From Antricoccus suffuscus (lineage in GTDB: Bacteria; Actinomycetota; Actinomycetes; Mycobacteriales; Antricoccaceae): 64,000 nucleotides of DNA. Shown here piece by piece: positions 6,525-28,566 of the stretch. The stretch spans positions 62,001 to 126,000 of the forward strand of contig NZ_PVUE01000001.1 in the NCBI RefSeq assembly GCF_003003235.1, in the 5' to 3' direction. The position numbers and the translations under genes are program-made. Each line of letters begins with the position of its first letter. The first letter of the stretch is position 1. The notes under the pieces were generated by a model. The model searched no databases, had not been told where the DNA came from, and saw only the letters and a list, made by a program, of their open reading frames with translations.

Positions 6525-8143
6525 TGACCAACGATGCACTTCTGGAGACGTACGAGATGACTTCCACGAACCACGAGTTTCCGGTGGCCACCGAGGCCGC
6601 CCGAGGCACCACCTACGACCGTCTGATCATCGAGGCCTTGGCGAGGTATCCCGAGCGTGAGGCCTTCGTCCTCGGTGACGTGAGGATGACCTACGCCGAG
6701 GCGGCCGTGTCGATGAGCCGCATCCAGCAGGTCCTCGAGGACCGCGGCATCGTGTACGGCTCCGGAGTGGGGGCGCTCAGCGTCAACATCCCCGAGGTGT
6801 GGTTGACCCAGGCCGCGTCCTACGCGCTGGGTGCTCACTACAGCGGCCTGCATCCCCTCGGCGCCGTCGATGACCATGTGTGGATCTGCGACGACGCCGA
6901 GATCGAGGTGCTCGTCGTCCACCCGATGTTTGCCAAGGTCGGTCTCGAGGTCGCCGAACGATCGAGCTCCGTGCGCCACCTCCTCGTCTTTGGCGAGGCC
7001 GAGGGCACCGAGGACCTCTTCGAGGCCATGCAGTGTTTCGAGGCAAAGCCCCTCGTCCCCGGCCCCGCGGGCGAGGAAGACCTCGCCTGGCTGCAGTACA
7101 CGGGCGGCACCACCGGCCGGCCGAAGGGCGTCATGCTCCCGCACCGCTCCATGGTCGAGCTGGCCCGGGCGGCCCTGACGAGCTGGCAGATGCCGGAGAC
7201 GCCGCGCTATCTCGTGGCGCCGCCCATCACCCACGCCGGCGTACTCCCGCTCTTCTCGACCCTTGCTCGTGGCGGCACCGTGATTCTCCTGCAGGGCTTC
7301 GAGCCGAAGTCCTTCGTCGCGGCCATCGAGCGGGAGCGGGCCAACTGCACCTTCGGCGTGCCGACGATGATCAACGCGTTGCTCGACCACACGACGCCCG
7401 AGGACGGCGACCTGAGCACTCTCGAGTCCTTCTTCTACGGAGCGGCTCCGATCACCCCGGACCGGCTGGCCCAGGCGCTCGAGCGATTCGGCCCCAGGCT
7501 CGTGCAGATCTACGGACAGACCGAGTGCGTGGGCGTGACCGCGAGCCTGCACCGCGAGGAGCACGACCCCATCGGTCGTCCAGAACTGCTCAGCTCGTGC
7601 GGTCGTCCCGTTATAGGCACCGCGGTCCGGGTGATCGACGAGCAGGGGCACGAGGTGCCGGACGGGACCCCGGGAGAACTGTGCGTGCGCTCACGAGCGG
7701 TGATGACCGGCTACTGGAAGTTGCCCGACCTCACCCGGGAGACGCTCCGCGATGGCTGGCTGCATACCGGCGACGTCGCCATGCGTGATGCGCAGGGCTA
7801 TCTGCACATCGTCGACCGGACCAAGGACATGATCATCACCGGCGGTTTCAACGTCTATCCCAAGGAGGTCGAGGACGCGATCGCGACCCATCCCGACGTG
7901 ACCGCCGTTGCCGTGGTCGGGCTGCCCGACGACACCTGGGGCGAGGCCGTCACCGCCTTCGTCGTCGTCCGCGAGGGTGCACAGGTCGATGCGGCCGAGA
8001 TCCAGCAGGTCGTGCGTGACGCCAAGGGAGCCCACCAGTCGCCCAAGGTGGTGCATGTCATCGATGAACTGCCCACGACACTCGTGGGCAAGATCGACAA
8101 GAAGAAGCTGCGTGAGCTCGGACGTGGGGAGCGCGACCGGTGA
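6524..8143 (+). CDS. AMP-forming acyl-CoA synthetase, second paralogue
   Basis: A second ANL ligase (539 residues), clearly diverged from the first. Motifs are YTGGTTGRPKGVM near residue 191, IYGQTEC near 329, DGWLHTGD near 409, DRTKDMIITGGFNVYP near 430, and a C-terminal TLVGKIDKKKL with the adenylating Lys. The ATG at 6524 overlaps the upstream stop. An ATG at 6557 with GGAGAC before it gives a more usual N-terminus and may be the true start. Two different ligases in one operon suggest activation of two acids, or of a starting compound and a later intermediate of the same route. Confidence 0.92.
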
Positions 8144-10920: not shown

Positions 10921-11337
10921 ATGACCGACACCATCTCCGTACGGGAGGGTCTCTTCCGGGAGACCAACGATGGACCGACCCTGCTCGCGGGGCGGTGTGC
11001 CCAGTGCGCGCGCACCGTCTTCCCGGCGACCGAGCGCTGTCTCGAGTGCGGGGACGACAGCATCGAGAGCGTCGAGCTCGGCGCGGAGGGGGAATTGCTC
11101 TGCGCCACCGTCGTGCACATGGGCAACGGGCGCTTCGACGCCGGGCACAGCGTCGGCTACGTGAGGATGCCGCATGACATCCGGGTCTTCAGCCAGATCA
11201 CCACGAGCGGTGAGCAGCCGCTTCCCTCGGGCACGCCGATGCGGCTCGAGATCGCGCCCCTGTGGCGTGAGGGGGAGCAGGACGTGCTCGCCTACCGATT
11301 CGTCCCGACCACGACCAAGGAGGCCGACGATGCGTGA
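10921..11337 (+). CDS. DUF35 OB-fold / zinc-ribbon acyl-CoA-associated protein
   Basis: A 138-residue protein with an N-terminal rubredoxin-like zinc ribbon (CAQC and CLEC, residues ~26-44) and a C-terminal OB-fold. DUF35 proteins bind acyl-CoA and form tight complexes with thiolase-fold partners, as in archaeal thiolase/HMG-CoA synthase and the sterol side-chain ChsH2-Ltp2 systems. Its stop overlaps the ATG of the thiolase at 11330, the usual sign of a stoichiometric partner. It probably channels or positions the CoA substrate rather than catalysing by itself. Confidence 0.9.
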   Translation: MTDTISVREGLFRETNDGPTLLAGRCAQCARTVFPATERCLECGDDSIESVELGAEGELLCATVVHMGNGRFDAGHSVGYVRMPHDIRVFSQITTSGEQPLPSGTPMRLEIAPLWREGEQDVLAYRFVPTTTKEADDA

Positions 11338-12475
11338 GGTCTTCGTCATCGGTACCGGGCAGAGCGATTTCGGCAAGACCCCGGAGCGCAGCGCCGCGCA
11401 GTTGGGCCGCGAGGCGGCGCTCGAGGCGATCGAGGACGCAGGGATACGGCCCGCCGACCTGCAGGGCGTCTTCTCGTCGCGGGTCTTCGACGCCATGGTC
11501 ACGAGCCAGAGCATCATGAAGGACATCGGTGTCGCCCGAATCGAGATGGTCAACGTGGAGAATGCCTGCTCCGGAGGCGCCACCGCCGTCCGCAGCCTGT
11601 ACAAGGACGTCGCTGCCGGGTTCATCGATATCGGCATCGCTATCGGTGTCGAATCGATGACCACCAGCCCGGTCGCCGGCAAGCTCATCCCGCCGGACAA
11701 GGACGACCTCGACGGCCAGATGGGCTTGACGATGCCGGTGCTCTTCGCCTTGCAGGCCCGGCGCCTGATGGAGACCCACGGGGCCACTCCTGAGGACTTC
11801 GCTCAGGTCTCGGTCAAGGCGCACGACTTCGGCGCGCTCAACCCGCGGGCGCAGTACCGCAAGCGATTCACCGTCGAGGAGGTTCTCGGCTCACGGATGA
11901 TCGCCGACCCGATCACGCTCCTGCAGTGCTGTCCCAACACCGACGGCGCGGCCGCTGTCGTGCTGGCCTCCGCCGAGGTGGCTCAGAGGTACTCCGACCT
12001 GCCGATCCGCATCGCGGGCTCGGCACTGGTCTCCGGGGAACAGGACTTCCGGCGTCCGGACGTCACCTCGATGCCGGCTGGACAGCGGGCCGCGCAGCTG
12101 GCGTATGAGCAGGCGGGTGTCTCGCCCTCCGACGTCGACGTCGTCGAGTTGCACGATGCCTTCGCCAGTGAGGAGATCGTTCACTACGAGGATCTCGGGC
12201 TGTGCGAGCGCGGCGAAGGCGTGGACCTGCTGCGCTCCGGGGCGACCTCCCTCGGTGGTCGGATCCCCGTCAACCCCAGCGGCGGTCTACTCTCCCTGGG
12301 CCACCCCCTGGCCGCATCGGGCGTGCGCACCATCGCCGACATCACCAACCAGTTGCGCGGTCGCGCCGGCGACGTACAGGTGCCGGACGCCCGGGTGGGT
12401 CTCGCCCAGATGCTCGGGGGTGTCGTCAACGGCATGGACGTGGCCGCCGCGAGCGTGCACGTCCTCACACGCTGA
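11330..12475 (+). CDS. SCP-x-type thiolase
   Basis: A 381-residue thiolase-fold enzyme. The nucleophilic Cys lies in ENACSGGA near residue 79, with HDAFASEE near 274 and SLGHPLAASG near 324 giving the two catalytic His residues. With the Cys present it should cleave a 3-ketoacyl-CoA, unlike the Cys-less aldolase Ltp2. The start at 11330 overlaps the DUF35 stop; the longer open frame from 11174 is only read-through. Together with the upstream genes it completes a beta-oxidation cycle. It is followed by the stump of another thiolase. Confidence 0.92.
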   Translation: MREVFVIGTGQSDFGKTPERSAAQLGREAALEAIEDAGIRPADLQGVFSSRVFDAMVTSQSIMKDIGVARIEMVNVENACSGGATAVRSLYKDVAAGFIDIGIAIGVESMTTSPVAGKLIPPDKDDLDGQMGLTMPVLFALQARRLMETHGATPEDFAQVSVKAHDFGALNPRAQYRKRFTVEEVLGSRMIADPITLLQCCPNTDGAAAVVLASAEVAQRYSDLPIRIAGSALVSGEQDFRRPDVTSMPAGQRAAQLAYEQAGVSPSDVDVVELHDAFASEEIVHYEDLGLCERGEGVDLLRSGATSLGGRIPVNPSGGLLSLGHPLAASGVRTIADITNQLRGRAGDVQVPDARVGLAQMLGGVVNGMDVAAASVHVLTR

Positions 12476-12514: not shown

Positions 12515-13042
12515 ATGAAATCGCCTGTCATCGCAGGGGTCGGCATGAACCCTTCACCAAGCCCGGCGCGTCCGCCACGTATGACCTCATGGCCGCCGAC
12601 GCGGTCCGACGTGCCCTGACCGCTGCGGGTCTCGAACTGACTGACGTCGACCAGGCGTATGCCGCCTACGTCTATGGGGACTCGACTTCCGGGCAGCGTG
12701 GCCTGTACCACGTCGACAAGACCGGGATGCCGATCGTCAATGTCAACAACACCTGCTCGTCCGCGGTGGATGCGCTGTCGGAGAAGTTCGACCTGAAGGC
12801 GCAAGCACGCAGCAGAGTGCAGGATGCAAAGACGACAGCCGCGCACACCGGGCACGACGCGAAAGGTCTTGCGGCGACTCAAATCCAGGCCGCGCCCACT
12901 CGCGTGGAACGGGCTGTCGCCCAGGCGAAGGACGCGGTCACCGACGAGCAGGGCCGCGTGAATTTCGTCAACGCGCGAATCGCCGCGGTGGGCGTTTCCG
13001 CCGGCGGCGATGATCGTGATGTGGAGCAGGCGGCGGCGATAA
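12515..13042 (+). pseudogene. Chimeric pseudogene: thiolase N-terminus fused to DUF3618
   Basis: It begins as a good thiolase gene: ribosome site AAAGGAAC, then MKSPVIAGVGM. A single-base loss near 12553 shifts the frame to PFTKPGASATYDLMAADAV-type thiolase sequence, running as far as VNVNNTCSS at the active-site Cys (~12760). At that point the sequence switches to VDALSEKFDLKAQARSRV, the conserved start of DUF3618 proteins (small actinobacterial membrane proteins). A second frameshift near 13005 separates the body from its membrane anchor and basic tail AAMIVMWSRRRR, which ends at TAA 13040-13042. So a deletion joined two unrelated genes and both halves then decayed. Confidence 0.75.
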
Positions 13043-13676
13043 ACCGGCCCGCCGCCGAACCCGCGCACCTTCACCGGGCGCCCGACACCGACGATACGGA
13101 GAAACCGACGCGCCATCGGAGATCACTATGCCGTCGTGGCGCTACGTCGCCGGCCGCACGCGCTCTTGGACCTTGCCAACGATATTGCTCAAGCAGGTGA
13201 GGGAGCCTGGATCAGACTGGCCGAGTTATCGCTTGACGGCGAATCGGACACAGTGAGGCGACTGTTCGAAGAGCTCTCCACGATTCAGCCGAGGCAAGAG
13301 TTTATACTGCAACTCGAGGCGATGCGCCCCGCGCCATGCCAAGCGTTGCCAGCATCAGTCGAGCGGGATCGCGCGAGGCCGAGGAGCGATGGTCGTAGCC
13401 GATGATGGTCCCCGAAGCAACGAGCGGTGAGGCGCCTAAGAGTGATGCCGCATTTTTCCTGGCGGAATGACCTACGTCTCGGGCCGCGCTACCGGGAGAG
13501 CTGTCCGGAAGAAGCCTGAGCGGGCATCAGCACCACGAGCTATCAGAACCACGCGGGCTGCGGAAATTCGTGTCCCGATTCCGGAAGTCCCGTTCGGAAC
13601 TGGCCCCGCTAGTCGGGCATCAACGGGCGGCCTGACCGTAGTCATCGACAACGTCGCGCCGCCGACAGTATCCGAC
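13043..13676. other. Stretch without a recognisable gene
   Basis: Open frames exist on the plus strand (for example 13136-13405 with AQAGEGAWIRLAELSLDGES, and 13467-13721). None has a convincing ribosome site, family motif or operon context. It lies between two damaged genes and is best read as degraded sequence; I see no RNA gene, integrase or attachment repeat in it. Confidence 0.4.
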
Positions 13677-16525: not shown

Positions 16526-16994
16526 TTACTGACGGGAGTCAGCGCCCCATCGATTTAGTCGCTGGTCACTGGTGGCGATCGTCAACCCACGGCGGGCGGC
16601 TTGGGCAACGATCATGCGATCGAACGGATCCTTGTGATCCCAACTGAGGCGTCCAGCCTGGCTGCGTCTACGGAATCGATTGCAAGTTCGGTGGCGTTCA
16701 TCGAGTCGAGAGTGTCATTCCATACCGACGAGAGCGCTTCGCCGTCCAGACGGCCGATCTGGGTCTTGATCGCGATCTCCCGTGCTGAGGCTGCACACAC
16801 GACAAGTTCGTCGAACGATTCTGGAACGCCAAGGTTAGGTAGTTGCCCGAAGAACCGAGGCCGGGCGTGTACAGGGGAAAGAATGGCGACCGGCCGGCCG
16901 TGCTTAGTGATGGTGACCGACGCCCGACCGCTCAACTTCAGCGAGCACTGCGTTGAGGCGTCTGTTGGCCTCCTGTGCTGGAAATCGTCTTCAT
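16526..16994 (-). pseudogene. Fused, frameshifted Phd-type antitoxin and PIN toxin
   Basis: From ATG 16994, MKTISS leads, after a shift, into EANRRLNAVLAEVERSG. After a second shift comes VTITKHGRPVAILSP, the hallmark of Phd/YefM antitoxins. The sequence then runs straight into SAREIAIKTQIGRL, the middle of a VapC PIN toxin, so the first third of the toxin (with its first catalytic Asp) is deleted. A third shift gives DPFDRMIVAQAARRGLTIAT, the PIN C-terminal acidic motif, ending at TAA 16526-16528. The gene is a dead toxin-antitoxin pair, joined by an internal deletion. Confidence 0.75.
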
Positions 16995-17026
16995 AGCCCT
17001 TGAACTAGATCAACGGGACGAGTCCT

Positions 17027-17047
17027 ACTAGTTCGAAACGAACTAGT
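17027..17047. promoter_or_regulatory. Perfect palindrome upstream of the toxin-antitoxin remnant
   Basis: ACTAGTTCG-AAA-CGAACTAGT is a 9-bp perfect inverted repeat 33 bases before the antitoxin ATG. Antitoxin operons are autorepressed through such sites, so this is the probable old operator. A second dyad, TAACGA-TGCTT-TCGTTA at 17111-17127, and a repeated GTTAACGAT at 17110 and near 17197 lie in front of the gene at 17246 and may belong to that promoter. Confidence 0.5.
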
Positions 17048-17245
17048 TGCGTGGAACCGTTCCCAGCCGGCGTCGGTCCCGAAGGGCATCTGGTTGAGCC
17101 GTCCCGAAGTTAACGATGCTTTCGTTATGTGCGCGATAAGACAAGCATGACGAGCAAGACAATCGCCCAAATATTGCGGCGATGCATTGTCAGGACGTTA
17201 ACGATCATGTACTAATGAGGGTAACAACTGTAATTCGGAGGACCT

Positions 17246-18679
17246 ATGACATCTCGTGTCGGAATCGCCGCCTACGGCAGCTATATCCCTTACTGGCGGC
17301 TCGGCCGCCAGACCGTCAACACCGCGCTGGGTAAACCCGGTGGCAAGGGCACGCGGGCGGTCGCGTCGTACGACGAGGACACCACGACCATGGCGGTCGA
17401 GGCGGCCCGCCGAGCGGTCGCCGGACTCGATTCCGTCGCGATGTTGGGCGGCGTCATCAGCTCGACCGCCACCCCGATCTATGCCGACAAGACCAACGCG
17501 ACGACCGTGCACGCGGCACTGGAGTTGGACCTCGACGTACGCGTCTCGGACCAAGGCGGTGCGGCGAGGTCCGGGATTGCCGCGCTGATAGGCGGCTTCT
17601 ACCAGCCTGGCGGCACGCTAGTGACACTCGCGGACACCCGCACCGGCGCCAGCGGCGGCGCGGACGAGGTCGGCACCGGCGACGCGGCGGCGGCGTTCGT
17701 CGTCGGCGACGGCCAGAGCCTCGACCTCATCGCCGACCTCGCAGGCACCGGATCGGGGTCCGCGGAGTTCCTCGACCGGTGGCGCGCACCAGGCGAGCCG
17801 TGGGCGGCTACCTGGGAGGAACGTTTTGGTGAAAGCGTGTACGTCGAACTCGCCGGCCGTTCCTTCGAAAACGCGCTGAAGTCCTCCGGTCTCACGGCGG
17901 GTGAGATCAACAAGTTCGCTGTCACGGGCATGTCACCGCGTGCGGCGAAGGCGTTCGCGAAGGGAAGCGGCGTACCGGCCGAAGCCATCGTGCCGGACCT
18001 CGAAGCGCAGATCGGCAACACCGGTACGGCGCACCCCGGCGTACTGCTCGCGGCGATGCTGGACGAGGCCAAGGCAGGGGAGCTCATCGCGGTGACGATG
18101 CTCGCGGATGGCGCTGACACTGTATTACTGCGGGTGACCGAGGCGATCGATAGCTACCGACGGCCACCGTCAGTCCAGCAGCAAATCGCTCAGGGCAACG
18201 AAACGCTGTCCTACCTGGACTTCCTGAGTTGGAAGGGCGCGATCCGCAACCAGACACCGCGTCGCCCGGATCCGGATCGGGCAGTCGCGCCGGCGACGTA
18301 CCGGGACTCGTCGTGGAAATACGGATTCTCCGGCAGCAAGTGCACCGAGTGCGGCACCCGGCACATGCCACCGCAGCGGGTCTGCCTCAAGTGCGGTGCC
18401 AATGACCACATGGTGCACGACAAGCTGTCGGATGTCGGCGCCAAGATCGCGACGTACACGATCGACCACCTTGCCTTCTCGCTGGCGCCGCCAGTGGTCG
18501 GCGTCGTGCTCGACTTCGACGGCGGTGGCCGGTTCTCCTGCGAGATGACCGACTGCGACCCGGAGAAGGTCGCCATAGGACAACGCGCCGAGATGACCTT
18601 CAGGAAGATCTCGACGGCAAGCGGAATTCACAACTATTTCTGGAAAGCTCGCCCAGCGGGCGAAGGGACGACATCATGA
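17246..18679 (+). CDS. HMG-CoA-synthase-like thiolase-fold protein fused to DUF35, catalytic Cys absent
   Basis: A 477-residue fusion. Residues ~1-330 have the HMG-CoA-synthase fold (VGIAAYGSYIPYWRL, DEDTTTMAVEAARRAV, GTGDAAAAFVVGDG, QIGNTGTAHPGVLLAAMLDEA). Residues ~345-470 are DUF35 with a zinc ribbon (CTEC near 364, CLKC near 379) and an OB-fold. At the acyl-Cys site the family reads ACYGGTAAL; here it reads AARSGIAAL near residue 105, so the nucleophile is Ala. It probably acts as an acyl-CoA-binding partner of the thiolase at 18676, with which it overlaps (ATGA). GGAGG precedes the start. Condensation by this subunit alone is unlikely. Confidence 0.88.
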   Translation: MTSRVGIAAYGSYIPYWRLGRQTVNTALGKPGGKGTRAVASYDEDTTTMAVEAARRAVAGLDSVAMLGGVISSTATPIYADKTNATTVHAALELDLDVRVSDQGGAARSGIAALIGGFYQPGGTLVTLADTRTGASGGADEVGTGDAAAAFVVGDGQSLDLIADLAGTGSGSAEFLDRWRAPGEPWAATWEERFGESVYVELAGRSFENALKSSGLTAGEINKFAVTGMSPRAAKAFAKGSGVPAEAIVPDLEAQIGNTGTAHPGVLLAAMLDEAKAGELIAVTMLADGADTVLLRVTEAIDSYRRPPSVQQQIAQGNETLSYLDFLSWKGAIRNQTPRRPDPDRAVAPATYRDSSWKYGFSGSKCTECGTRHMPPQRVCLKCGANDHMVHDKLSDVGAKIATYTIDHLAFSLAPPVVGVVLDFDGGGRFSCEMTDCDPEKVAIGQRAEMTFRKISTASGIHNYFWKARPAGEGTTS

Positions 18680-19869
18680 GCTCACATGGAATCAAGGACC
18701 GCGTCGCCATCATCGGGATGGGCTGCACCAAGTTCGGCGAACGGTGGGACGCCTCTACCTCAGACATGGTCGTCGACGCGACTAACGACGCGTTCGCGTC
18801 CGCAGGCATCAGCAAGGACGCGATCGACGCCTATTGGCTCGGCACTCTGGCCTCCGGTTTCTCGGGGATGACACTGTCCTCCGCGCTCAAGCTCGACTAC
18901 AAACCGGTCACGCGGGTGGAGAACTTCTGCGCCAGCGGCTCGGAGTCGTTCCGCAACGCCTGCTACGCGGTGGCATCCGGCGCGTACGACGTGGTGATGG
19001 CCGTCGGCGTGGAGAAGCTTAAGGACTCCGGCTACTCGGGCCTGGCATACGGCGGCCCGCCGACCAACGGTACGGCGACCACCCTCACCGCACCCGCGCG
19101 CTTCTCGATGCTCGGCCCGGCGTACGCCAACAAGTACGACGTCAAGCGTGAGGACTTCAAGCAGGCGATGACCCACGTGGCCTGGAAGAACCACTTCAAC
19201 GGCGCCCGCAACGAACGCGCGCAGTTCCAGGCCGAAGTGCCCGAATCGAAGATCGCAGCTGCGCCTCCGATCGCCGGCGACCTGGGCGTATTCGACTGCT
19301 CCGGTGTCAGCGATGGCGCCGCCGCGGCGATTATCGTGCGTGCCGAAGATGCGCACAACTACACCGACAATCCGTTGTATGTGAAGGCGCTGTCGTTCGC
19401 GGCTGGGCCGGGCACTGGCACCTACGATCAGTCCTACGACTACACGACGTTCGAAGAAGTCGTCCGGTCGGCGAAGGACGCCTATCAGCAGGCGGGCGTA
19501 ACCTCGCCGAGCGATGACCTGATGATGGCCGAGGTGCACGACTGCTTCACGCCGACCGAGTTGGTGCTGATGGAAGATCTCGGGTTCTCCACCCGTGGCG
19601 CGACGGTCAAGGACACGATGAACGACCGGTTCACGCTCACCGGCGACCTCCCGGTCAACCCGGACGGCGGGTTGAAGAGCTTCGGGCATCCGATCGGTGC
19701 TTCCGGCCTGCGGATGCTGTTCGAGTGCTGGCTGCAACTGCGCGGCGAGGCTCCCGAGAACCGTCAGATCAAGGAAAAGGGACTGCGCTACGGGCTTACC
19801 CACAACCTCGGCGGCGGCCCGGGCGAGTGCGTCTCGTTCGTGTCGGTCGTCGGCGCCGAGAAGGGCTGA
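18676..19869 (+). CDS. SCP-x-type thiolase
   Basis: A 397-residue thiolase-fold enzyme. Active-site elements are ENFCASGSESF with Cys near residue 85, VHDCFTPTELV near 288, FGHPIGASGLR near 337 and NLGGGPGECVS near the end. It should cleave or form a C-C bond next to a CoA thioester. Its start overlaps the stop of the HMGCS-like/DUF35 fusion, which indicates a stable complex analogous to thiolase-DUF35-HMGCS assemblies. A strong hairpin terminator follows at 19920. The physiological ketoacyl-CoA is unknown. Confidence 0.92.
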   Translation: MSSHGIKDRVAIIGMGCTKFGERWDASTSDMVVDATNDAFASAGISKDAIDAYWLGTLASGFSGMTLSSALKLDYKPVTRVENFCASGSESFRNACYAVASGAYDVVMAVGVEKLKDSGYSGLAYGGPPTNGTATTLTAPARFSMLGPAYANKYDVKREDFKQAMTHVAWKNHFNGARNERAQFQAEVPESKIAAAPPIAGDLGVFDCSGVSDGAAAAIIVRAEDAHNYTDNPLYVKALSFAAGPGTGTYDQSYDYTTFEEVVRSAKDAYQQAGVTSPSDDLMMAEVHDCFTPTELVLMEDLGFSTRGATVKDTMNDRFTLTGDLPVNPDGGLKSFGHPIGASGLRMLFECWLQLRGEAPENRQIKEKGLRYGLTHNLGGGPGECVSFVSVVGAEKG

Positions 19870-19919
19870 TCTTCGCCGCCTTTGATTTGCGCCGTACTTC
19901 GCGCTCCTCGTCACACCGA

Positions 19920-19961
19920 TATCCCCCTTGTCATGCCTAAAGCGGCGTGACAAGGGGGATA
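19920..19961. terminator. Bidirectional hairpin terminator
   Basis: A perfect 14-bp stem begins TATCCCCCTTGTCA and its complement closes a 14-base loop that can pair further (GCC/GGC). It separates the thiolase gene from the convergent MFS gene and so can stop both transcripts. Confidence 0.8.
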
Positions 19962-20011
19962 ATGCTGTGACAGGGGACCGTACCTGAGCGCCGCCTTTTT
20001 GCCCCAAACGC

Positions 20012-21367
20012 TTACGTACGCCGCGCGCCGCCGCCGAATACGCACGCCAATGCGGCGACCAGCGCTGCCACGCAGAATCCGTACATCGCGATCGACATTC
20101 CCCGCGCGAGGTCGGCGGCGCCCGCCGCGTAGCCGACGGCGAGGGTCGCGGCGGTGACGCCGAACGCCGTACCTAGGCCGCGGGTCATGTTGAGGATCCC
20201 GGACGCGGCACCGGACTGCCGACGCGGCGCGGACGCCATGATCGAGGCGTTGTTGGCAGGGGTGAAGACGCCGGACCCGATGCCGAGCACGACGAGCCCA
20301 ACGATGAGCCCCCACAGCGAGGATCCGAGCGCGCCGATCAACGCTAGTCCGATAGCGGCGATCAGCATGCCGATCGAGGTGACGAGCCGCGGTCCATTGC
20401 GGTCGCCGAGGTAGCCGGCGATCGGCGCGACGAGGGCGAGCGTGACCGGCAGGATGGTGAGGACGAGCCCGGTGGTCGCGGCCGATTGCAGGTGCGCCGA
20501 GGCCATCGGTACGGCGAAAAGGACACCGAACAGTACGGCGTAGGACAGCAGCCCGCTGACGATCCCGGTGCTGAACGTGCGTGAGGCGAATAGTCGCAGG
20601 TCGATCAGGGGATGCGGCGTACGCCGCGAACGGACGAGGAAGACGGCGCCGATTGTGAGGGCCAGAGCGCCACCGGCGATGGGCCATAGAGCCGCGATCC
20701 CCGGATGACCGACAAACGACAACGCGAGTACGAGTAGGACGATTGACGGGACGAAAAGTGCCAACCCGAGTCGGTCGAACCGGGTACGTTCGGCCAGAGA
20801 CTGGCTCTGCGGCAGAAGGAACCAACCAGCCGTGATGCCGATTATCCCGAATGGGATGTTGACGGCGAAGATCAGGCGCCAGTCGCCGAGAGAGACCAGC
20901 AGTCCGCCGACTGTCGGACCGAGCGCGAGTCCGATGGCCTGGGCCGCTCCTTGTACGCCGATCGCCTTGCTTAGCGAGTCACGCGGCACCGCGGTCGCAA
21001 TAAGGGCGACGCTGTTGGCTTGGAGCATTGCCGCGCCGACCGCCTGCAACACGCGAAAAATAATCAGTGTGGTGAGGTTCGGCGCGAGTGCGCAAAGAAG
21101 TGACGCGACGGTGAAGACGCCGAATCCGTAGACATAGACGCTCTTACGTCCTAGCCAGTCAGAGACCCGCCCGACGGGGGCGACGAGAGCGACGAGCGTG
21201 AGCAGGTAGCTGAGGGCGACCCACTGAACACTGCCGGCACTGGCACCGAACTCCTTCTGCATCGGAGGCAGTGCGAGTGACACGATGCTCGCGTCAAGCT
21301 GTCCCATAAAGGCGCCCGCGCACACGGTGGCAACCGCGATCCAGTGCGCCCTCGGGGATGCGCGCAC
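20012..21367 (-). CDS. MFS drug/H+ antiporter (DHA2/EmrB-QacA type)
   Basis: A 451-residue multi-span transporter with about 13-14 hydrophobic helices. Helix 1 contains GAFMGQLDASIVSLALPPM, typical of 14-span DHA2 exporters. Motif A is GRVSDWLGRKSVYV after helix 2, and motif C is AIGLALGPTVGGLLVSL in helix 5. It exports hydrophobic or organic-anion compounds using the proton gradient. It is divergent from a MarR gene with a palindromic site between them, so export is probably induced by the compound that the downstream catabolic genes handle. Confidence 0.92.
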   Translation of the reverse strand: MRASPRAHWIAVATVCAGAFMGQLDASIVSLALPPMQKEFGASAGSVQWVALSYLLTLVALVAPVGRVSDWLGRKSVYVYGFGVFTVASLLCALAPNLTTLIIFRVLQAVGAAMLQANSVALIATAVPRDSLSKAIGVQGAAQAIGLALGPTVGGLLVSLGDWRLIFAVNIPFGIIGITAGWFLLPQSQSLAERTRFDRLGLALFVPSIVLLVLALSFVGHPGIAALWPIAGGALALTIGAVFLVRSRRTPHPLIDLRLFASRTFSTGIVSGLLSYAVLFGVLFAVPMASAHLQSAATTGLVLTILPVTLALVAPIAGYLGDRNGPRLVTSIGMLIAAIGLALIGALGSSLWGLIVGLVVLGIGSGVFTPANNASIMASAPRRQSGAASGILNMTRGLGTAFGVTAATLAVGYAAGAADLARGMSIAMYGFCVAALVAALACVFGGGARRT

Positions 21368-27252: not shown

Positions 27253-28566
27253 CTACATGAGACGGAACTTGCCCTCGGAGTTCTCGCGGATCAGATCCAG
27301 GGTGTCGCGGCCCTGGATCTTTGCCGTAGATTCGGCGACCGCCCAGGCGTAAACGCCCTTCGACATCGTCGAGGTGGCGCGCTTTCGGAGTTCGCCGAAG
27401 ATCTCTGCGCGGATTGCGTGCACGTCGAGATTGTCCGGTTCGGCATCGGTAGCGAGCTGGATGAGCTTCGCCGCCACACGTTCGTCGCCGTCGTTGAGCT
27501 CGCGTCGCGCCGTCGCGGCAAGTGCGTCGGCGCCGCCAGCTAGCGTGGCTATCGATTCACCCAAAACCGACCGCCGAGCGGGCTTGAGATTAGATGGATC
27601 GCCGTCGTACCAGCCGCCGTAGAGCCGCCACGCGTTGCGTACAACGAATTCGGGTTCGTCATACGACGGCCGCAGGTATGGCTTGTCCAGGAACTTCTCC
27701 GGTACGTCGACCGAATGCAACGCCGTATCGAGGGTCGCGCCGCTGTTGAGAAGTTCCATCGTGCTGGCGTGCAGATGCTCGAGGTACTCCGCGGAAGTCG
27801 TCATCGCCTCGACGATCCGGTCCTTGCCGACTATGGGAAGTCCGTGTCCGGGCAGCAGGAACCCTGCACCGAGGCCGGCGATCTCGCGCAGCTTTTCAGC
27901 CCACTTCAAGGCATAGCGCTGCACCTTCTGTGGATTACCGGCGTTGGGGCTGGACCAGATGAAGAAATCACCTACGCAGACGACCTTCTTCTGCGGGAAC
28001 CACGCAACCGTCGCGTCGTCAGTCTCGCCGTACCCGTGCGACAGCTCAGCTACCAGTCCACCTTGAGACAGCGTCATTCGCGTGTCGTAGGTGGTGTCTG
28101 GGTAGCGGTAAGTCTTCGGCCAGCGAAGGTCGGGGGCCTGGAACTGGCGCTGGTTGATGACCGTGTTGTAGCCGTTTGTCGATATATAGCGATCAAATCG
28201 GTCTTTGACCGCGGAGTGTGCCACTACTGTGGGTCGGTTCCAGCCGTTGGCGTCGGCCTCCTGGTCGAAGCCTTTCGTGCCCCAGATGTGATCGACGTGC
28301 CCGTGCGAATAGACCGCGTGCCGCAGCGGTTCGGCCGATAGTTTGCGTGTGGCGTCGAACAGAGCCCGGGCGGTGTCGGCCGAACCGGCGTCGAACATCA
28401 GCAGCCCGTCGTCGGTCTCGAAGACATACACGTTGCCGAACGCTGGCCACATGTGCACGCCGTCGGTGATCGCGTGTAGGCCATGCTCTCGTAGATCGCC
28501 ATTGTGATAGGCCATCGCGTCGGACTCTTGGCGCCAGACTTTGTCGGCGTACTCAAGGATATCCAT
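27253..28566 (-). CDS. Alkylsulfatase-like metallo-beta-lactamase-fold hydrolase
   Basis: A 437-residue zinc hydrolase. The MBL core shows the metal motif YSHGHVDHIWG (HxHxDH) near residue 90, a later LSHGYGETDDATV, and LLPGHGLPIVG near 240. Then comes the alkylsulfatase dimerisation region NAWRLYGGWYDGDPSNLKPA near 315. Known linear-alkyl sulfatases are ~650 residues and end with an SCP2-like domain; here the protein stops soon after the dimer domain. It may therefore hydrolyse another ester or lactone. It is adjacent to, and in the same direction as, the ADP-forming acyl-CoA synthetase (30-base gap). Confidence 0.85.
   Translation of the reverse strand: MDILEYADKVWRQESDAMAYHNGDLREHGLHAITDGVHMWPAFGNVYVFETDDGLLMFDAGSADTARALFDATRKLSAEPLRHAVYSHGHVDHIWGTKGFDQEADANGWNRPTVVAHSAVKDRFDRYISTNGYNTVINQRQFQAPDLRWPKTYRYPDTTYDTRMTLSQGGLVAELSHGYGETDDATVAWFPQKKVVCVGDFFIWSSPNAGNPQKVQRYALKWAEKLREIAGLGAGFLLPGHGLPIVGKDRIVEAMTTSAEYLEHLHASTMELLNSGATLDTALHSVDVPEKFLDKPYLRPSYDEPEFVVRNAWRLYGGWYDGDPSNLKPARRSVLGESIATLAGGADALAATARRELNDGDERVAAKLIQLATDAEPDNLDVHAIRAEIFGELRKRATSTMSKGVYAWAVAESTAKIQGRDTLDLIRENSEGKFRLM

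Follow-up and report, generated by a model that had tools for sequence, protein, structure and literature searches.

A family-wide dead HMG-CoA synthase-like domain fused to DUF35 and paired with an intact thiolase in Antricoccus suffuscus, other bacteria and haloarchaea

The DNA considered here, referred to as the window, is a stretch of 64,000 nucleotides from Antricoccus suffuscus (contig NZ_PVUE01000001.1, positions 62,001 to 126,000), in which two overlapping genes encode, first, a protein that joins a domain resembling 3-hydroxy-3-methylglutaryl coenzyme A (HMG-CoA) synthase (HMGCS) to a zinc-ribbon/OB module of the DUF35 kind and, second, a thiolase (Table 1). An earlier note on this DNA had read the locus as such a fusion overlapping a thiolase, and the open reading frames (ORFs), the shared ATGA and the domain matches all bear this out. 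The first part of the fusion has the fold of an archaeal HMG-CoA synthase, with Ala in place of both the catalytic Cys and the catalytic Glu, and it scores below the cut-offs of the two archaeal HMG-CoA synthase profiles, NF003274 and TIGR00748 (135.2 bits vs 244, and 81.7 vs 353.35). The second part is a Cys4 zinc ribbon (zf-ChsH2, residues 362-385, a profile match above cut-off) followed by an OB fold, as is characteristic of DUF35 proteins.

The same note had placed an Ala "near residue 105" where the acyl-carrying Cys of the synthase should be, and had taken the locus for two of the three archaeal components in one chain with a dead synthase site; the exact residue is Ala107, opposite Cys114 of chain I of the archaeal complex 6ESQ, and the loss turns out to have been understated, as the Glu and the His of the synthase are gone too. 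Neither a frame error nor an alternative Cys nucleophile accounts for this in the window protein: the fusion has six Cys in all, every one at residue 366 or beyond, and residues 1-365 have none; a different Cys in the active site is thereby ruled out.

The loss extends well past this genome. Among 123 aligned relatives of the fusion, drawn from Actinobacteria, Acidimicrobiia, Chloroflexi, Proteobacteria, haloarchaea and others, the catalytic Cys is kept in none and the Glu in none, and a His stands at column 238, which aligns less surely, in two; the Cys column was marked by 6ESQ chain I as the sole reference, in place of a set of stand-alone archaeal synthases. The 123 comprise 84 relatives, 19 loci on plasmids of Actinobacteria, alpha- and betaproteobacteria and haloarchaea (with which the count for either residue stands at 0/103), and 20 more distant loci at 27-36% identity. 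Across the 84 relatives the Cys column holds Val in 61, Ala in seven, Leu in six, Pro in four, Ile in three and Glu and Thr in one each, with one gap, and the Glu column holds Ala in 55, Thr in 17, Ser in seven and Pro in five. The Ala of the window protein is itself a minority state, seen in 9 of the 123 relatives, Val or Leu being found in 88. A Cys lies within six columns of the catalytic column in 16/103 relatives, never in the column itself. Since 0/123 keep Cys or Glu, the loss is more than chance and is common to every sampled relative, not particular to this genome, and the HMGCS-like domain looks like an old and stable pseudo-synthase and not like a product of decay. The closest relatives (L002, L003 and L004) have a Cys three columns before the lost one, within SDxCGSVRS, which is absent from the window protein.

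It can be envisioned that the domain is still an enzyme, working through other conserved residues such as Arg108 and Ser109 and carrying out a second step on the product. Arg or Lys directly follows the lost Cys in 117 of the 123 relatives, Ser109 is found in 82/84, and Arg178, Trp190 and Glu192 are further conserved fusion residues that 6ESQ chain I does not share. We nevertheless consider a second enzyme clearly unlikely, given that nucleophile, Glu and His are all lost and that the window protein offers no Cys before the zinc ribbon; moreover, Lys occupies the place of Arg108 both in HMGCS and in the dead PhlA of the PhlABC acyltransferase, so the residue may be structural.

The thiolase presents the opposite picture. 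That it keeps its Cys and His residues had been recognised by the earlier note; it has Cys85, His288 and His338, and this Cys nucleophile and these two catalytic His agree, as does its profile score, with a thiolase of the PRK06157 type (NF004810). In an alignment of 95 thiolases, Cys85, His288, His173 and Cys290 are present in all 95 and His338 in 94, with one gap; three members of this set (L057, L067 and L092) are shorter than 375 residues. The residue counts were extended to 115 thiolases, one of which, that of L136, is a 52-residue piece at the end of its stretch without the sites; omitted were the partial thiolases of L054, L061, L063, L080, L097, L104 and L111 as well as L106, which has no thiolase match. 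This contrast between 0/123 live fusion sites and 114/114 live thiolase sites is the main result.

Table 1. Features of the fusion and thiolase genes, in window coordinates
Feature	Position	Strand	Remarks
Likely ribosome-binding site, GGAGG, 4 nt 5′ of the fusion ATG	17237..17241	+	read by eye
Fusion ORF, HMG-CoA-synthase-like + zinc-ribbon/OB (DUF35)	17246..18679	+	477 aa; AlphaFold2 pLDDT (predicted local distance difference test) 88.4, pTM (predicted template modelling score) 0.91
HMGCS-like domain, archaeal type, residues 4-334	17255..18247	+	NF003274 E 2.7e-39; fold match 6esq_J Z 44.3, root-mean-square deviation (rmsd) 2.0, 331 aligned
Ala75, aligns with catalytic Glu82 of 6ESQ chain I	17468..17470	+	
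Ala107, aligns with nucleophile Cys114 of 6ESQ chain I	17564..17566	+	
Thr227, aligns with His238 of 6ESQ chain I	17924..17926	+	least certain of the three columns
Linker, residues 340-360	18263..18325	+	low model confidence; 346-348 and 352-359 pLDDT <50
Four zinc-ribbon Cys: 366, 369, 380, 383	18341..18394	+	
OB fold (OB_ChsH2_C), residues 398-453	18437..18604	+	profile match above cut-off
ATGA shared by the stop of the fusion and the start of the thiolase	18676..18679	+	
Thiolase ORF	18676..19869	+	397 aa; NF004810 (PRK06157) 590.5 bits vs cut-off 403; fold match 6esq_A Z 54.7
Thiolase nucleophile Cys85	18928..18930	+	kept in 114/114 relatives covering the site
Thiolase His288 (EVHDCF motif)	19537..19539	+	kept in 114/114 relatives covering the site
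Thiolase His338 (GHP motif)	19687..19689	+	kept in 113/113 relatives covering the site

Predicted folds agree with these assignments. The fusion, modelled by AlphaFold2 with 56 family sequences, and the thiolase (pLDDT 86.4) were each modelled as single chains; fold searches covered the HMGCS-like part and the thiolase, and the DUF35 part was assigned from sequence. The best matches of the fusion are the HMGCS-like chains of three-component complexes, with 6esq_J (Z 44.3) followed by 9skh_A at Z 42.4 (rmsd 2.0, 326 aligned), 5mg5_A at 41.1 (rmsd 2.8, 336) and 9vbo_A at 39.6 (rmsd 2.9, 333), and the free-standing MvaS comes lower, at Z 36.8 (rmsd 2.7, 355). For the thiolase the nearest chain is 6esq_A (rmsd 1.6, 372 aligned), with benzoylsuccinyl-CoA thiolase at Z 52.5 and PhlC at 49.8.

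The two genes travel together. A thiolase of the same type lies with the fusion in 123 of the 124 loci inspected, that is, in 84/85 chromosomal loci (the window's own included), 19/19 opened plasmid loci and 20/20 further loci, in one of which the thiolase is a 52-residue piece at the end of the stretch; the exception, L106, has no thiolase match and ends about 0.1 kb past the fusion. All 84 chromosomal pairs are on the same strand, and the thiolase starts at most 120 nt from the end of the fusion in 80 of the 83 measured, the others being L063 (a two-piece match), L079 (130 nt) and L086 (1,990 nt). In the five haloarchaeal plasmid loci the order is thiolase, then fusion. This tight pairing bears on the possibility that the fusion is a regulator that binds CoA or another partner and forms no complex with the neighbouring thiolase. 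The contact between the two proteins is deduced, and the genome does contain other DUF35 genes and thiolases, but the constancy of the pairing makes a regulator very unlikely.

The distribution of the family is wide. A relative of the fusion is encoded in 519 stretches of the genome collection (tblastn, E <=1e-3), the best 80 of which were read as loci, so that the sample leans towards the window; 42 plasmid records contain a match, and 19 of them were inspected together with 5-10 kb of flanking sequence; and in a phylum sample 57/396 genomes match at E 1e-30, the 20 further loci being lower-scoring matches picked from it by hand. Phage records yielded no match to the fusion, and a phage origin is rejected. 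Closer to home the occurrence is patchy: in a set of 61 genomes 25 match, five of them (the window's own included) with a whole-length fusion, and in the others it is mainly the DUF35 part that aligns. A sixth fusion in this set (L026, genome G037), divergent and 428 aa long, reads GGAPAALD at the site, has no Cys there and stands outside all counts. Some copies of the fusion are misleadingly annotated, for example as hydroxymethylglutaryl-CoA synthase.

From the domains, the conserved loss, the live partner, the pairing and the folds we infer a two-polypeptide heteromeric thiolase, to which we assign a probability of roughly two in three. In such an enzyme the live thiolase would do the chemistry, acyl transfer proceeding through Cys85 with His288 and His338, and the C-C bond of a 3-oxoacyl-CoA would be cleaved or, in reverse, formed. 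The HMGCS-like domain, having lost Cys, Glu and His, would act as a scaffold and would line or enlarge a shared acyl-CoA cavity, perhaps one for a bulky or unusual substrate. The zinc-ribbon/OB domain would fasten the HMGCS-like domain to the thiolase, an arrangement that needs two polypeptides where the archaeal and PhlABC-type complexes have three. Conservation and distances can be read in the same way: conservation falls from 0.73 in the thiolase to 0.68 in the OB fold and 0.53-0.58 in the HMGCS-like domain, and over 72 loci the distances of the DUF35 part correlate with those of the thiolase at 0.81 and those of the HMGCS-like domain at 0.63, correlations that are uncontrolled and that shared ancestry alone would also raise. 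They fit an arrangement in which DUF35 grips the thiolase and the HMGCS-like domain is under a looser, substrate-dependent constraint.

Several observations weigh against this picture. The lower conservation of the HMGCS-like domain and its correlation of 0.63 leave room for a constraint that is simply looser. The window protein departs from the family consensus at Ser230 (His in 76/84) and Val100 (Ala in 83/84), a stop codon lies inside 5 of the 70 fusion matches in the phylum sample, and the thiolases of L063, L080 and L097 were matched in two pieces. In addition, the flanking genes are unrelated and on the other strand, so the substrate is unreadable from any operon in the window. The stop codons, together with conservation below that of the thiolase, are also what would be expected if the HMGCS-like domain were a decaying remnant without a role. 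However, the domain has many near-invariant residues and a confidently predicted fold and has persisted across bacteria and haloarchaea, and we regard a mere remnant as most improbable.

What the pair acts on is best approached through the surroundings of its relatives. By our own reading of the annotations, 17 of the 19 plasmid loci lie among genes of acyl-CoA catabolism, the exceptions being L126, with mostly SDR and VOC genes around it, and L130, where the pair stands by itself. This context and the intact thiolase residues together favour CoA-dependent C-C cleavage of 3-oxoacyl-CoAs, perhaps bulky ones. A more specific proposal, tentative and rather unlikely as it stands, is that of a catabolic C-C deacylase for bulky acyl-CoAs, in which the gutted HMGCS cavity would hold the aryl, terpenoid or steroid part and the thiolase would remove an acyl unit. 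If true, the complex would mirror the PhlABC Friedel-Crafts acylase in degradation, with a dependence on CoA, and would be spread over both chromosomes and plasmids in soil bacteria and haloarchaea.

The same surroundings also contain the argument for a different chemistry, that of an acyltransferase like PhlABC or MucABC, which would move an acyl group to or from a ring carbon (C-acylation or its reverse) and would not perform ordinary thiolysis. Such enzymes are built from these three components too, the HMGCS-like one being dead, and ring-hydroxylating dioxygenase genes stand near the pair in 5 of the 19 plasmid loci (L115-L118 and L125, with the same gene order in L115 and L116), somewhat as in ibuprofen degradation, where the products of ipfDE, of thiolase type and OB fold, take part in forming isobutylcatechol and propionyl-CoA (PMC11347016). 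These five loci, on plasmids of Rhodococcus, Mycobacterium avium, Variovorax and Niveispirillum, mostly have AMP-ligase or enoyl-CoA hydratase genes as well. That the pair is such an acyltransferase nevertheless seems unlikely to us: the thiolase scores higher against the archaeal acetoacetyl-CoA thiolase than against PhlC (191.6 vs 84.1 bits), the invariant His288 would by spacing, in unaligned sequences, occupy the place of PhlC Tyr298, and no ring-hydroxylating dioxygenase lies near the pair in the window, the two PF00848 matches of the genome being on other contigs.

Within the window the pair is isolated, with a transglycosylase-like gene upstream on the opposite strand and a convergent MFS transporter gene downstream; a scan of 16900-20100 for promoters and terminators found none (shuffle means 0.5 and 1.9). 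It lies between two groups of acyl-CoA genes, one at 5.0-12.5 kb (two AMP-dependent ligases, an acyl-CoA dehydrogenase, an SDR and a stand-alone DUF35 with a thiolase) and one at 23.2-27.2 kb (three acyl-CoA dehydrogenase-type genes and an enoyl-CoA hydratase). The unfused DUF35 and thiolase genes of the first group overlap at 10921-12475 (+) and adjoin the SDR and acyl-CoA dehydrogenase genes. Just beyond, the ORF at 12589-13200 (+) begins like an SCP2-type thiolase as far as the nucleophile, with VNNTCSSAVDAL resembling VNNNCSTGSTAL of the zebrafish SCP2-thiolase, and continues into unrelated sequence; a Pfam search at 1e-5 gave no match, and it is probably a truncated thiolase. Next to the acyl-CoA dehydrogenase group is an alkyl-sulfatase-like metallo-hydrolase (Lactamase_B and Alkyl_sulf_dimr; 27256-28566, -). 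The ORF at 16612-16935 (-), of 107 aa, seems by eye to join an antitoxin-like start to a PIN-like tail and is perhaps a degraded toxin-antitoxin pair, with no Pfam match at 1e-5.

Elsewhere in the same genome, a 479-aa frame at position 481411 of contig C1 was considered as a second fusion and rejected, since the DUF35 gene there is unfused and has a thiolase-like gene as its neighbour. At this locus (L031, C1 at about 481 kb) the thiolase-like gene (6762-7952, -) overlaps the stand-alone DUF35 gene and has, by eye, no Cys at the expected place of the nucleophile (NSFGATASVM); it is possibly an aldolase of the Ltp2 kind.

The principle of a dead HMGCS-like protein combined with DUF35 and a live thiolase is already known from PhlABC (PDB 5M3K/5MG5), with MucABC as a third case, and the likeness is close, PhlABC too combining a live thiolase-like subunit and a DUF35 protein with an HMGCS-like member that has neither the catalytic Cys nor the Glu (against 5m3k, the fusion gives Z 40.9 and the thiolase Z 49.8). 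According to PMC6392133, PhlA has Gly115 and Cys83 in place of the catalytic Cys and Glu, only residues of PhlC act in acyl transfer, expression of the entire phlABC operon is required for a functional enzyme, and large cavities are lined jointly by PhlA, PhlB and PhlC. By this analogy the scaffold idea of the earlier note is sound, though not new, and a non-catalytic role as scaffold or pocket is the most economical reading, whereas the new reaction outcome that it drew from the dead site finds no support, since PhlA is equally without Cys and Glu and the residues of the present thiolase are ordinary ones. PMC2954200 had already in 2010 presented the PhlABC operon as coding for two thiolase-superfamily proteins, one active and one inactive, together with a DUF35 protein, and it also mentions, in a general way, fusions of DUF35 to proteins of this superfamily, among which the present architecture may be included. 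A search of the open-licence literature, which leaves most subscription papers outside, found no paper on the fusion itself.

There are also differences. PhlABC consists of three separate proteins assembled as (A2C2)2B4, whereas here there are two, the HMGCS-like domain and DUF35 sharing one ORF, and the pair is known from single-chain models; PhlABC performs CoA-independent C-acylation of a ring in antibiotic synthesis, whereas the relatives of the present pair are mostly in catabolic surroundings, and the partner here is nearer to true thiolases than PhlC is. CsATase of Chromobacterium sphagni (9SKH) is grouped with PhlABC, and MucABC of Streptococcus macacae (PDB 9VBO/9VBT) is a three-component acyltransferase whose proteins, unlike the fusion, are separate, both being judged from aligned sequences and PDB titles. 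In our alignment the HMGCS-like chain of MucABC has Glu at the Cys column and Cys at the Glu column and has lost the catalytic pair; the S. mutans enzyme is described as acetylating a tetramate (PMC10161427). The archaeal thiolase/HMGCS complex (6ESQ) is the nearest solved system in sequence for all three parts and, for the HMGCS-like domain and the thiolase, also in fold, but its proteins are separate, where the present pair is two polypeptides, and serve the mevalonate pathway, and its synthase is catalytic, through Cys114 and Glu82 as given in PMC6392133, which that of the fusion is not.

To our knowledge BbsAB, the benzoylsuccinyl-CoA thiolase, has no HMGCS-like part. It is a catabolic thiolase (PDB 7PXP/7PYT) whose fold matches that of the present thiolase at Z 52.5, and its DUF35 subunit is BbsA (PMC12329534). 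The same paper describes the steroid side-chain aldolases Ltp2-ChsH2 and Sal-Shy (PDB 6OK1, 9MYR), in which a thiolase fold is held by a DUF35 fused to another enzyme. There, however, the partner of DUF35 is a hydratase and not an HMGCS-like domain, and the chemistry is retroaldol and uses other residues, a Tyr pair or Tyr/Cys (YDCY; PMC12329534), where the present thiolase keeps Cys85 and reads EVHDCF. Kept across bacteria and haloarchaea and, in the inspected loci, nearly always accompanied by a live thiolase, this pseudoenzyme offers a clean setting in which to study the role of a dead partner in an enzyme complex, and with two proteins in place of the three of PhlABC it may be an easier system in which to learn how a dead subunit shapes substrate choice in C-C cleavage or formation. 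Overall, what is distinct here, set beside these systems, is the family-wide fusion of a dead synthase to DUF35, a partner close to true thiolases, and relatives whose neighbouring genes are mostly catabolic.

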